Source of the DNA: Candidatus Nitrosopumilus sp.
GTDB lineage: Archaea; Thermoproteota; Nitrososphaeria; Nitrososphaerales; Nitrosopumilaceae
Direction of reading: 5' to 3'
Assembly (NCBI GenBank): GCA_030637455.1
Contig: DAOWGL010000014.1
Location: 1-18,283 of the forward strand
DNA length: 18,283 nucleotides
In this document: in pieces, positions 10,873 through 15,039 of the stretch
How the letters are laid out: the number at the start of each line of letters is the position of its first letter
Position numbering within the stretch: position 1 is the stretch's first letter
Made by a program: the position numbers and the translations under genes
The notes under the pieces: generated by a model
Database searches by the model: none
What the model was told of the DNA's origin: nothing
Seen by the model: only the letters and a program-made list of their open reading frames with translations

Positions 10873-12027
10873 ATGGTAGAAAGTAATTATGATATTTTAA
10901 GAATTGTTGAGGGTTCAACAGAAAAAGAAATTCGTGATGCATTTAGACGATTAGCTCTCCAGTTTCATTCAGATCGTGGAGGTGAAAATGAACAATTTAT
11001 CAAAATTAAACAAGCATACGATGATCTAAAAATTGGTAAAAAATATCCAGAAACAGATTATGAAAAATTAAAAAATTCCAAAGTATATTCTGGTGATTCA
11101 GAAGCTGATGTAAGAAGAAAAAACCAGATTTTAGGTCAAGAATTATTCAAAGAAATGAAAACTGCTGAAGAATGGGCTGCCACTTTGAATAATTCAAACA
11201 CAACTGCATCTAGATTGTTTGGTTCAAAAACCCTTGGAGAAATTGAATTAGAACGAAAGGCTAGTGGTGCTTTGTCAATTAAAGGAAATTTTATGGCAGG
11301 AAGTTTTTCTTATAATGGTCCAATAATTATGCAGGGAAGTATTACTAGTCCATCATGGACAGAAGAATTTCAGACAAATATCCATCTAACTAATGGGGAT
11401 TTCAAATTCATTAATCCACTAGAAAATAAATACAAAATTGATAATGGTGCAAAAATTATAGTAGATAATGGTAATGTTGTTATTGGAAATGTTTATGGAA
11501 GAAAATTTAAAATTGAAGATCCTGTACGCGTAGGTGTTTTTCAAATTCAAGAGCATAGAACTCACATCTCAGCTTTAAATGGAAAAATTATTGCAGAAAA
11601 TATTGCAAATACAGTATTACTTGAAGCTGATTCTGTTATTGTTTTGAATGTTGAAGACGATGTAAAAATTTCTGCAAGAGAAATTTTATTTTATGGTGGA
11701 AAGTTAACTTTTGATTCTGAGATTTTATTAAAAGAAGGTGGAACAATTAGATTCTTTGAGAATTTTTCTATTCAGGGACTAAGTGGTGATGCAATAATCA
11801 AACTTGAAAATGGTAAAAAAATTAGATTATTTGATCTTAAAACTAAAAAAATTAAAGATTTAGCTGATGAATTTGTATCAAACAAAGAGAACTACATCAA
11901 AGATGCCACTATGGTTGGTCGTGGATTTACTATAACCTATACAATGTTAGATAATCTCTCTTTGAAACCTGCTAAAAAACAAAAACAAGGTTGGGCATCA
12001 AAATTTAGATTTTCTAAAAATAATTAG
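10873..12027 (+). CDS. J-domain protein with variant HSD motif and a beta-rich body
   Basis: The N-terminus (about 1-58) is a J domain: YDILRIVEGSTEKEIRDAFR, then RLALQFHSDRGG, then a last helix with FIKIKQAYDDL. J domains stimulate Hsp70 (DnaK) ATPase through an His-Pro-Asp triplet; here it is His-Ser-Asp (32-34). There are no Gly/Phe or zinc-finger domains, so this is not a full DnaJ. A charged linker follows (about 59-125), then about 230 residues of short alternating strands with regularly placed Gly, Asn and Ile/Val (for example GKIIAENIANTVLLEADSV), which look like a beta-solenoid comparable to polymer-forming bactofilins. The tail is basic. I know no named family for this architecture. 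It is transcribed alone between usp and the PII-like gene; no convincing TATA box was found. Confidence 0.8.
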   Translation: MVESNYDILRIVEGSTEKEIRDAFRRLALQFHSDRGGENEQFIKIKQAYDDLKIGKKYPETDYEKLKNSKVYSGDSEADVRRKNQILGQELFKEMKTAEEWAATLNNSNTTASRLFGSKTLGEIELERKASGALSIKGNFMAGSFSYNGPIIMQGSITSPSWTEEFQTNIHLTNGDFKFINPLENKYKIDNGAKIIVDNGNVVIGNVYGRKFKIEDPVRVGVFQIQEHRTHISALNGKIIAENIANTVLLEADSVIVLNVEDDVKISAREILFYGGKLTFDSEILLKEGGTIRFFENFSIQGLSGDAIIKLENGKKIRLFDLKTKKIKDLADEFVSNKENYIKDATMVGRGFTITYTMLDNLSLKPAKKQKQGWASKFRFSKNN

Positions 12028-12046: not shown

Positions 12047-12068
12047 GGCTTGATAATGACAGTTTCTC

Positions 12069-12078
12069 ATAAATAAGA
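12069..12078 (+). promoter_or_regulatory. TATA box for the PII-like gene
   Basis: ATAAATAAG within CATAAATAAG is centred about 25 bases before the ATG at 12098, so the message is likely leaderless. Confidence 0.55.
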
Positions 12079-12097: not shown

Positions 12098-12679
12098 ATG
12101 AAAAAGATAGAGGCTGTAATTAAAAGAAAAAATTTTCCTACCATTAAAACCAATTTGAATACAGTTGGAACTTACATTATTGATAAACGAAATTTAGATG
12201 ATAGTGATATTTATGATGAATCACAAGGTTCTCGTGCTGGTTCTACTGGAGTAAAGTCAGTACCACTTGCAAAAATCGAAATGGTAGTTTCAGATAAAGA
12301 TGCAAGAAAAGTAGTAGACATGGTTTCAAAAACTTCTGGTTTATCATCAGTTCATGGAGGTAAAATCTTTGTTTCTGAAATGGAAGAAGTTGTAGATATG
12401 GAAACACTTGACGGACAACAAGACCTTGAAATATCTTTAGATAAAAAACCAGAATCAAAATCATTACCAAAGCGCAGTAGATTAGTCCCGTTACAAAAAT
12501 TTACTTTACATAAACTACAAGAAACATATGAAGAAAACAAAGAAACCCTTCGAAATGATTACAGAATAAAATCTTTTAGCGATTTTGTAAATTATTGTAT
12601 TATGAAATCACTTCCAATTTTAGAAAAACAATTAAAAAATCCTACAATTATCTATGAAAATAATTTTGGCGATTTTTAA
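12098..12679 (+). CDS. PII-like protein with a C-terminal ribbon-helix-helix-like segment
   Basis: Residues 1-112 follow the PII fold closely: an opening MKKIEAVIKRKNFPTIKTNL, helix, GTYIID strand, a long T-loop-like stretch (29-55), then PLAKIEMVVSDKDARKVVDM and the end motif GGKIFVSEMEEVVDMETLDG, which matches the GKIFVxPVExxIRIRTGE block of GlnB/GlnK. The T loop has no canonical Tyr51 site (a Tyr lies at 39) and the C-loop Arg residues (IRIR) are replaced (VDME). Residues 113-127 form a charged linker. Residues 128-178 read as strand (RLVPLQKFTL), helix, short turn, helix (SFSDFVNYCIMKSLPILEK), which resembles a ribbon-helix-helix DNA-binding unit. This tail is absent from ordinary PII proteins of about 110 residues. 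It is convergent with glnK and its microproteins. PII homology is good; the DNA-binding reading is an inference. Confidence 0.8.
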   Translation: MKKIEAVIKRKNFPTIKTNLNTVGTYIIDKRNLDDSDIYDESQGSRAGSTGVKSVPLAKIEMVVSDKDARKVVDMVSKTSGLSSVHGGKIFVSEMEEVVDMETLDGQQDLEISLDKKPESKSLPKRSRLVPLQKFTLHKLQETYEENKETLRNDYRIKSFSDFVNYCIMKSLPILEKQLKNPTIIYENNFGDF

Positions 12680-12901: not shown

Positions 12902-13231
12902 TTAGATTGTATTATCCCCTTCAGCAGTAGTTGCAATATCTATTGCACGTAAAATTTGTGAAACAAAAATTTTACCAACTCTGCCATTTTCTTTGATAAT
13001 TCCTATGACTTCATCTTCTTTTGTATCTGGTATTATGACTTCTAAATGATATTTGTCACTAAATTGAGGCACAAAAATCTCACTTCCTTTTGATGCGTGA
13101 ATTTCCGGACCTGGTTTCTTTCCTCTTCCTCTGACTTTGGAAACTGTGAGGCCCCCTATGCCTATTTTTTTTAACCCTTCACTGATTCCCATGACATCAT
13201 TTTCGCCAAGTATTACTTCTATTTTGAGCAT
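12902..13231 (-). CDS. glnK: Nitrogen regulatory protein PII (GlnK type)
   Basis: The 109-residue protein is a canonical-length PII trimer subunit. It binds ATP/ADP and 2-oxoglutarate and controls the ammonium transporter, whose gene is divergent across 117 bases. The B-loop region ends in GKIFVSQ (K87, matching the conserved Lys90). The T loop (about 36-57) reads GRGKKPGPEIHASKGSE and lacks the Tyr51 that bacteria uridylylate, as in most archaeal GlnK proteins. The C-terminal IRIRTGE block is altered to IDIATTAE, losing two arginines that normally contact nucleotide phosphates. A TATA element lies about 29-30 bases upstream of its ATG. Two microprotein genes follow in the same direction. Confidence 0.95.
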   Translation of the reverse strand: MLKIEVILGENDVMGISEGLKKIGIGGLTVSKVRGRGKKPGPEIHASKGSEIFVPQFSDKYHLEVIIPDTKEDEVIGIIKENGRVGKIFVSQILRAIDIATTAEGDNTI

Positions 13232-13256: not shown

Positions 13257-13266
13257 AAATATAATT
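13257..13266 (-). promoter_or_regulatory. TATA box for glnK
   Basis: AATTATATTT on the minus strand is centred about 30 bases before the glnK ATG. The palindrome at 13283-13297 lies directly upstream of it, in the place of an activator or repressor site. Confidence 0.55.
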
Positions 13267-13282
13267 TCTGGTTTTGATGACT

Positions 13283-13297
13283 AAATGATTATCATTT
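13283..13297. promoter_or_regulatory. 15-bp perfect palindrome midway between glnK and amt, candidate operator
   Basis: AAATGAT-T-ATCATTT is a perfect inverted repeat with a single central base. Its centre (13290) is 59 bases from each start codon, so it sits symmetrically between the two divergent promoters. This is the arrangement of a shared operator for a homodimeric regulator. The regulator is unknown. Confidence 0.6.
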
Positions 13298-13318
13298 GTA
13301 TATCAAATTTCGACATTG

Positions 13319-13326
13319 TTATTAAT
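13319..13326 (+). promoter_or_regulatory. TATA box for amt
   Basis: TTATTAAT is centred about 26 bases before the ATG at 13349, consistent with a leaderless message for amt and the gene behind it. Confidence 0.5.
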
Positions 13327-13348: not shown

Positions 13349-14659
13349 ATGGTACTTGATTCTGGAGATACAGCATGGATGCTTGTAGCTGGAAGTCTTG
13401 TATTGCTTATGATTCCTGCATTGGGTCTTTTTGAATCTGGATTATTAAGGAAAAAGAACGCTGCATCAATTTTTATGCAAATCTTCTTTGGTTTGGCAAT
13501 GCTTAGTGTCATGTGGTTTATTTTTGGATTTAGTGTTTCCTTTGGTGATTCAACTGGAGGATTAATTGGAAATTTTGATTGGTTATTTCTTAAAGGAGTT
13601 CCATCTGATGCACCATTGGAACAATATGCTCCAACAATCCCTGGTGTGTTGTTTGTTAAATTCCAATTAATGTTTGCAGCAATTACTCCGCTATTGCTTA
13701 CAGGAACTATTGCTGAAAGAATGAAATTCAGTTCATTTATCATATTTATTGCAGCATGGTCTATGCTGATTTACTATCCACTTGTTCACTGGGTTTGGGG
13801 TGGTGGATGGTTAGCACAACTTGGTGTTGTTGATTTTGCTGGTGGTATTGTAATTCACACAAGTGTTGGAATGGCAGCTCTTGCTGCCGCACTAGTGCTT
13901 GGTAGAAGAAGAAACTATGGTCCAGCCATTATGATTCCTCATAGTATTCCACTTGCTGTTTTAGGTTCTTCATTATTGTGGTTAGGATGGTTTGGTTTTA
14001 ACGCAGGTAGTGCACTTTCTGCATCAGGTGGAGTTGCTGGTAATACTGTAATTGTAACCCACATGGCCTCATCTGTATCTGCTTTAATTTGGGCAGGACT
14101 TTCATGGATTAGAACTGGAAAACCATCAGTTGTAGCTACAATTAACGGCGCAATTGCAGGTCTTGCAGGAATTACTCCTGCATCTGGATTTGTTAGTCCT
14201 GAACATGCATTTGTAATTGGTATTGCAATAGGTGTAATTTCATACTCTGGCGTAGTGTTATTCAAAGAAAAATTAAAGATTGATGATGCACTTGATGTAA
14301 GCTCTGTTCACGGTGTTGCAGGTATTGTTGGTGCGTTAGCTATAGGAATTTTTGCAAGTACTGCAATTAATCCTGGAGGAGTAGACGGATTACTCTTTGG
14401 TAATCCAGATCAACTTTGGATTCAAGCAGTAGGTGTTGGTGTAGCAGCTGTTATGGGATTTGGTGGAACTTGGATAATTCTTCAAGTGTTGAAACGTACT
14501 ATAGGAATTCGAGTTTCAGCTGAAGTTGAAGATGTGGGATTGGATATTAGTGAGCATGCTGAATCTGCTTATTCTGACGAAGAAGAATTCTTGCTGGATA
14601 TGGATGATTATAAAGATGAATTACAGGAAAAGGATGAAATACTATTCAAAAAGAAATAA
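13349..14659 (+). CDS. amt: Ammonium transporter Amt/MEP/Rh family
   Basis: The 436-residue protein has the eleven-helix Amt fold and imports ammonium, the energy and nitrogen source of an ammonia oxidiser. Family landmarks are GLFESGLLRKKN (26-37), the region with KFQLMFAAIT (104-113), TGTIAERMKF, the DFAGG loop, the twin pore histidines H170 (VIHTSVG) and H321 (VHGVAGIVGAL), and GWFGFNAGSALSA (213-225). There is no bacterial-type signal peptide. The cytoplasmic C-terminus (about 385-436) keeps the family VGLDISEHAESAY block, which contacts GlnK, then adds an acidic, charged tail (EEEFLLDMDDYKDE). The gene is divergent from glnK and is followed 14 bases later by a DUF6659-type gene. Which of the two transporter types of this group it belongs to cannot be fixed by eye. 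Confidence 0.97.
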   Translation: MVLDSGDTAWMLVAGSLVLLMIPALGLFESGLLRKKNAASIFMQIFFGLAMLSVMWFIFGFSVSFGDSTGGLIGNFDWLFLKGVPSDAPLEQYAPTIPGVLFVKFQLMFAAITPLLLTGTIAERMKFSSFIIFIAAWSMLIYYPLVHWVWGGGWLAQLGVVDFAGGIVIHTSVGMAALAAALVLGRRRNYGPAIMIPHSIPLAVLGSSLLWLGWFGFNAGSALSASGGVAGNTVIVTHMASSVSALIWAGLSWIRTGKPSVVATINGAIAGLAGITPASGFVSPEHAFVIGIAIGVISYSGVVLFKEKLKIDDALDVSSVHGVAGIVGALAIGIFASTAINPGGVDGLLFGNPDQLWIQAVGVGVAAVMGFGGTWIILQVLKRTIGIRVSAEVEDVGLDISEHAESAYSDEEEFLLDMDDYKDELQEKDEILFKKK

Positions 14660-14673
14660 GATGGTAATAAAAA

Positions 14674-15039
14674 ATGACAGTAGACTATAATGAAATATCA
14701 AAACAAGTTCTTGATTTAGATCCTAAAGTTAGATTTGCAGGTGTTGCAAATAGTAAGGGTGAGATGATTGCTGGTGGACAAAAAGAAAATGTAGAAAAAA
14801 TCTTAGATGGTGAAAATGTCAAAATGTCAATTCACTATGCACTGCAAAAAAGAGATCTTTATACAAATTTAGCATACAAACTAGGTAAAGAACAATCATC
14901 AATTACAGAATACGCAATAGTTACCATGATTAGTATTCCAATCAATTCCAACGACTTGTTTATGATTAGTACAGAACCAAGAGCAGATTATTTGAAAATT
15001 ATTGATTTTGTTCACGCTGCTCTAAAAAATTCAGAATAA
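14674..15039 (+). CDS. DUF6659/roadblock-like small protein
   Basis: The 121-residue protein belongs to a group common in ammonia-oxidising archaea. From memory this is DUF6659, with a roadblock/LC7-like fold. The pattern LDPKVRFAGVANSKGEMIAGG (15-35) is the characteristic strand-turn-strand opening, followed by a helix, a central segment (AYKLGKEQSSITEYAIVTMISIPI, 67-90) and a last strand-helix (FMISTEPRADYLKIIDFV). It is soluble with no signal peptide. Roadblock-like proteins dimerise and often serve as adaptors or small-GTPase partners. The gene starts 14 bases after amt on the same strand with no separate promoter, so it is likely co-transcribed. Its own function is unknown. Confidence 0.8.
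   Translation: MTVDYNEISKQVLDLDPKVRFAGVANSKGEMIAGGQKENVEKILDGENVKMSIHYALQKRDLYTNLAYKLGKEQSSITEYAIVTMISIPINSNDLFMISTEPRADYLKIIDFVHAALKNSE

Follow-up and report, generated by a model that had tools for sequence, protein, structure and literature searches.

PII proteins (GlnK/GlnB) ordinarily act through partner proteins and not on DNA. Where the state of PII or GlnK is coupled to transcription of amt and glnK, as with AmtR, GlnR, TnrA and NtcA-PipX, DNA binding falls to a separate polypeptide. One-component regulators are also known: the archaeal nitrogen repressor NrpR, which combines a winged helix with another 2-oxoglutarate domain, controls glnK-amtB through palindromes, and NikR joins an N-terminal ribbon-helix-helix (RHH) domain to a C-terminal ACT (ferredoxin-like) ligand domain. 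MetJ and other RHH repressors recognize short tandem palindromic boxes, which lie 8 bp apart in the case of MetJ.

Here we analysed a stretch of 18,283 nt, called the window in its entirety, whose numbering is used for all coordinates below. It encodes a PII-like protein with a C-terminal RHH-like domain (hereafter the fusion), a candidate for a so far undescribed archaeal nitrogen regulator. Searches of the open-licence literature turned up, among the titles and abstract starts listed, no mention of a PII-RHH fusion or of the TGATNATCA operator described below. We consider it quite probable that the fusion serves ammonia-oxidizing archaea as a one-component transcription factor, predicted from sequence to bind DNA and to control glnK-amt and its own gene. 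Such a protein would resemble NikR in combining an RHH with a ferredoxin-like ligand domain within a single polypeptide, and would differ from it in the reversed domain order, the PII-like sensor, a longer helix A in the tail and a different operator. The proposed role parallels that of NrpR, likewise an archaeal one-component regulator that controls glnK-amt by way of palindromes, whereas the DNA-binding and sensor domains differ, going by the general description of NrpR. In contrast to AmtR, GlnR, TnrA and NtcA-PipX with their separate DNA-binding chain, sensor and DNA-binding domain would here share a single chain.

A PII-like domain joined to a conserved C-terminal domain

The fusion gene is organized as follows:

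12098..12679, + strand: PII-RHH fusion gene, 193 aa
12098..12412, + strand: PII-like domain, residues 1-105 (Pfam, PDB sequence, predicted fold)
12413..12469, + strand: variable linker, residues 106-124 (alignment of relatives)
12470..12637, + strand: RHH-like domain, residues 125-180 (conserved tail of the fusion)

A sequence-only reading of this DNA had claimed a PII-like protein with an extra C-terminal domain, which Pfam, PDB sequence, predicted fold and conservation now confirm. Its domain bounds need adjusting: the N-terminal PII-like part stands, while the tail starts near residue 125 and not at 113. Across 44 aligned fusion sequences, the tail is conserved and the linker variable, the stretch 104-125 measuring between 13 and 57 residues. 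The RHH-like domain consists, in order, of a basic arm (KRSR), a strand-like segment (RLVPLQ), helix A, a KSFSDF turn and helix B; within it, R126, R128, P131, L132, Q133 and K134 are invariant in 44/44 sequences, from Nitrosopumilus to Nitrosocaldus types. Directly upstream of the fusion gene, positions 10873-12027 encode a 384-aa protein with an N-terminal DnaJ domain (PF00226) and a remainder without Pfam match, and this DnaJ-domain gene holds the same place in two close relatives (L148, L149).

The PII similarity on which that reading hinged was found above the curated Pfam cut-off (PF00543, 40.8 bits, cut-off 25), and structure comparison of residues 1-111 revealed the PII ferredoxin-like fold in the predicted monomer. 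The fusion is like PII proteins in the sequence and fold of residues 1-105, in its linkage to glnK and amt, and in the lysines at the positions that we take to be Lys58 (44/44 fusion sequences) and Lys90 (43/44). It differs from them in its C-terminal RHH-like domain, in an Asp or Glu at the presumed Arg101 position (44/44 in the alignment) and in missing the canonical T-loop motif at its place. At the presumed Arg103 position, which like that of Arg101 we assign to the ATP site, S, E, D, Q and N predominate across the 44 sequences. The GRG motif, with which the canonical PII T-loop starts, is absent there from the window protein and from the shown alignment of fusion sequences; in Nitrosocaldus-type rows, a GRGGG occurs further along, closer to where the loop stretch ends. 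Because the ATP-site arginine is gone, we regard the domain as PII-like and not as a canonical PII, and the absence of the ATP-site arginines makes the usual reading of ATP and 2-oxoglutarate by this domain doubtful. Of the earlier proposal of a nitrogen/energy sensor, the PII-like fold is retained, and ordinary nitrogen/energy sensing becomes doubtful. The neighbouring GlnK of the window (12902-13231) ends in DIATTAEG at the place where PII proteins have the two arginines, and it, too, may bind nucleotides differently.

Spread of the fusion and its association with amt

A protein search with the fusion recovered 1339 relatives; among the 120 matches listed, those with a name are called 'transcriptional regulator', 'P-II family nitrogen regulator' or 'nitrogen regulatory protein P-II 1'. 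Of 300 genomes searched in the class, 103 gave a match at E <= 1e-5, and 82 carry the fusion itself (hand count), so the same architecture is found in other archaea: 43 of the 72 genomes in the window's genus are carriers, as are 33 in other genera of the family and 6 in a second family, whose fusion proteins have close database relatives named Candidatus Nitrosocaldus. These 82 include split or interrupted copies (for example in G044, G104, G111, G284, G293 and G297) and one genome (G230) whose contig stops before the tail. The G111 copy is split over two frames (G111:C14), and a second copy, 39% identical, lies on another contig (L133:4903-5520).

At many of the family's loci, the fusion is found together with glnK and amt. 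It is accompanied by amt and a PII gene in the second family, and in one genus (g2) the PII gene is convergent with the fusion and amt lies elsewhere. Within the window's genus, fusion and amt share their losses: a close amt is present in 42/43 fusion carriers versus 1/29 other genomes, the latter including three with a match to the PII part only (G081, G220 and G221) and missing contigs affecting both groups. The G081 genome is a single contig; its fusion stops near residue 86, next to a 99-aa PII-like ORF, and no close amt is left. Directly after amt, the window encodes a DUF6659 protein (14674-15039), present in 13/34 loci compared, mostly near amt (flank lengths differ).

A putative tandem operator array between glnK and amt

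The region downstream of the fusion gene contains the following elements:

12902..13231, - strand: glnK, PII family, 109 aa, proposed target, convergent with the fusion
13257..13264, - strand: TATA-like TTATATTT, presumably of glnK (from sequence)
13275..13283, no strand: putative operator box 1, TGATGACTA, 2 mismatches (array scan)
13286..13294, no strand: putative operator box 2, TGATTATCA, perfect (array scan)
13297..13305, no strand: putative operator box 3, TGTATATCA, 2 mismatches (array scan)
13319..13326, + strand: TATA-like TTATTAAT, presumably of amt (from sequence)
13349..14659, + strand: amt ammonium transporter, proposed main target (PF00909, E 6.3e-117)

As had been noted before, the fusion (+ strand) and glnK (- strand) are convergent. 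Between the divergent glnK and amt genes, the window holds three tandem copies of a consensus box, TGATNATCA, with an 11-bp period; this array is situated upstream of each of the two TATA-like elements and overlaps neither. The palindrome at 13283-13297, earlier put forward as a candidate operator, survives with a correction: it is the middle of this conserved three-box array, which is new relative to that observation.

We compared 46 distinct glnK-amt intergenics, all from fusion carriers. Together they show 139 mismatches, versus a mean of 481 after shuffling (sd 8, minimum 459; 100 shuffles). At least one perfect TGATNATCA is present in the best array of 44/46, and in 40/46 each of the two start codons is 40-44 bp away from the array. 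One glnK-amt intergenic, that of G246 (L173 / L108), has an expanded array of 11 boxes in tandem. As in MetJ-type operators, the tandem short palindromes suggest dimers bound side by side; the spacing is 11 bp versus 8 bp in MetJ, which has no PII domain, and homology to MetJ is unsupported here.

Fusion and array co-occur in cis and in trans

The exact two-box pattern is present in 27/300 genomes, and all 27 are among the 82 fusion carriers by hand count (hypergeometric 1.6e-17, assuming independent genomes; since the genomes are related, the co-occurrence tests are not independent). The reversed pattern, used as a control, gave zero among the matches listed. With up to one mismatch allowed, a two-box site was found in 59 of the 76 fusion carriers searched; the 17 without one at this threshold include the window's genome. 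The amt promoters gave a consistent picture. All 65 from carriers (46 plus 19 further ones, with the fetched L235 left out as a glnK site, and L005 and L229 seemingly one contig) have a two-box site at <=4 mismatches in 16 positions, versus 2/40 from genomes without detected fusion, 38/40 lacking the array. These 40 comprise 20 from 14 genomes of one genus (g8), 18 from two families (f3, f5) and two from genus g2. The two exceptions are L214, with 4 mismatches, and L215 of G141, with 3; a divergent fusion query did not find the fusion in G141, despite this weak array.

Physical proximity is not a constant feature of the association. G028 and G056 have an exact array at glnK-amt and the fusion on another contig, G137 has exact arrays at amt and at a glnK-like gene on two contigs and the fusion on a third, and 1-mismatch arrays occur with the fusion far away in G003, G025, G071 and G148. 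Since fusion and array thus go together in trans, linkage alone is insufficient to explain their association. Genomes with the fusion typically have a glnK-amt array as well, which the fusion very likely controls.

Boxes before the fusion gene and at other sites

The window's fusion gene is itself preceded by a box:

12051..12059, + strand: single box TGATAATGA, 1 mismatch, putative autoregulatory site
12068-12075: TATA-like CATAAATA, downstream of the TGATAATGA box

A box at <=1 mismatch lies between -95 and -40 in 25 of 63 distinct fusion promoters (hand count), compared with ~4-5 expected at the window's chance rate; the other 38 have none in this interval. In 16 of the 25, including the window (12051-12059), it is located at -45 to -48. 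Three perfect boxes precede the fusion gene of L125, located at -90, -79 and -68. Among Nitrosocaldus-like loci, L134, L136 and L138 have a perfect box and L137 has one with one mismatch, each beside a TATA-like element, the boxes preceding an operon of a small ORF followed by fusion and PII; L135 is uninformative, its stretch having ended at an ORF boundary.

Beyond these promoters, the matches listed include, in four genomes (L247, L248, L250, L251), a 1-mismatch two-box site near position 1500 of the locus; some 55-100 bp further downstream follows a cation/proton antiporter-like gene, a possible second target. In G229 and G216, TGATGATCANNTGATCATCA has a Pit-like phosphate transporter gene on one side and a PhoU-like gene on the other (L163:1501, L164:1202, L260:1522); all three gene labels are our own reading of the sequences. 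We judged as chance, also among the matches listed, the sites in transketolase-coding sequence (L253, L254, L257, L258), other coding sites (L252, L255), a site downstream of an Hsp20-like gene (L249) and one at a contig edge (L256).

Relationship of the tail to ribbon-helix-helix domains

The tail is a separate conserved domain that is also found outside the fusion. Tail-only ORFs of 57 and 70 aa exist (L139, L140), the domain is also part of other proteins (L322-L325), and its profile matches 48 of 398 sampled genomes of the phylum. With the 57-aa ORF as query, we recovered 3 database proteins, 82-100% identical. Three of the other proteins (L322, L323 and L324) measure 132-144 residues from stop to stop and gave no Pfam match above cut-off; in them the RHH-like domain lies close to the N-terminus and a Cys-containing part comes after it.

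For comparison with archaeal RHH_1 domains, we used a reference set of 21 segments from 30 loci of the class, 9 having been dropped by a motif/stop filter. A first tail profile of 18 sequences reached an hhalign score of 13.6 (P 0.027). Extended by four distant members from the profile search, it scored 21.15 (P 4.2e-4), a value attained by 0/300 column shuffles (mean 9.2, sd 2.0, maximum 17.4), with shuffled columns as the only control and RHH_1 as the sole family compared. The alignment places strand on strand and the SxSD turn of the tail on the SxSE turn of RHH_1, helix A being eight residues longer in the tail.

Scans of tails against Pfam, PHROGs, NCBIfam and PDB sequences yielded nothing above threshold. 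The window tail had no Pfam RHH match, RHH_5 for L139 (E 0.04) and RHH_1 for L325 (E 0.042) fell below the Pfam cut-off, and unrelated models score equally well or better on single tail sequences. We judged as chance, without certainty, a DAAF9_N match of the window tail (E 0.0076) and a ribosome-binding factor A match of L324 (E 9.4e-5, 22.8 bits against a cut-off of 236). The full-length AlphaFold monomer has tail helices at 131-152 and 160-180 and no strand in the tail, which may be because an RHH strand would form in the dimer only. On these comparisons, the tail is likely, though not proven, to be an RHH domain: the idea of an RHH tail gains from the extended profile, its shuffles and a remote similarity in the right register, and finds less backing in the narrower profile and none in the Pfam RHH models.

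Proposed mechanism and alternative explanations

The array accompanying the fusion in cis and in trans supports the sequence-only reading of a one-component nitrogen regulator, whose DNA-binding fold had been inferred. In the mechanism that we propose, a flexible linker would connect the PII-like sensor at the N-terminus with an RHH DNA-binding domain at the C-terminus. The fusion would bind the tandem TGATNATCA boxes, usually two or three, in the glnK-amt intergenic region with its two divergent promoters and, in some genomes, also the box before its own gene; whichever ligand or partner the PII-like domain senses would set amt and glnK expression. We infer here the DNA binding, the RHH dimer or oligomer, the ligand or signal, and the sign of regulation. 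Given the position of the array, just ahead of the two TATA-like elements and equidistant from the two start codons, we lean towards the bound fusion acting mainly as an activator. More tentatively, it may represent a regulator class that combines a PII-like trimer with RHH dimers. Six chains, paired as three RHH dimers and grouped as two PII trimers, would satisfy both the three-fold symmetry of PII and the two-fold symmetry of RHH; such a hexamer would fit the three 11-bp boxes between glnK and amt, with a sensor that lacks the usual ATP reading and perhaps responds to GlnK (through mixed trimers) or to another ligand.

The same factor at the same sites might instead repress glnK-amt, bound under ammonia starvation, a reading whose odds overlap those of the main one and which we hold to be a real possibility, though below even. 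RHH proteins are mostly repressors, but the boxes stand ahead of the two TATA-like elements and leave them free, as sites of archaeal activators do. According to PMC7490402, low-affinity amt transcripts fall at low ammonia, which a starvation repressor would fit too. It is rather unlikely, in our estimate, that a different, unlinked regulator binds the boxes while the fusion only co-occurs and uses its tail for protein contacts. Other genes such as that for DUF6659 also accompany amt, G141 has a weak array without a detected fusion, and DNA binding by the fusion is itself a prediction; yet DUF6659 is found in merely 13/34 loci (with differing flank lengths), fusion and arrays occur together on different contigs (G028, G056, G137), boxes precede the fusion gene in 25/63 promoters, and the tail resembles an RHH. 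We find it very improbable that the C-terminal extension serves oligomerization or targeting of a PII-like protein that does not bind DNA. The name 'P-II family nitrogen regulator' of some records and tail scores below Pfam cut-offs would agree with such a role, but six tail residues are invariant in 44 sequences while the linker varies, and the fusion is coupled to the array.

Physiological context and significance

Low ammonia is reported to depress the low-affinity amt of N. maritimus, a gene absent from deep-sea genomes (PMC7490402), and nearly all sponge-associated genomes are reported to be without amt1 and to have a single PII gene (PMC11812461). The window's amt has a similar loss pattern, together with PII genes, and this pattern, the sole basis for the assignment, leads us to infer that it is amt1 and the counterpart of the N. 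maritimus low-affinity amt. In a sponge symbiont, the second amt lies beside ATP synthase (PMC6790972), an arrangement that was not seen in L332 and L333. Activation of amt by the fusion at ample ammonia, or its repression in starvation, would fit.

With a named protein and a named 31-bp operator, control of glnK-amt becomes testable in vitro. Direct control of DNA by a PII-like domain would, if true, be unusual for a family that acts through partners.
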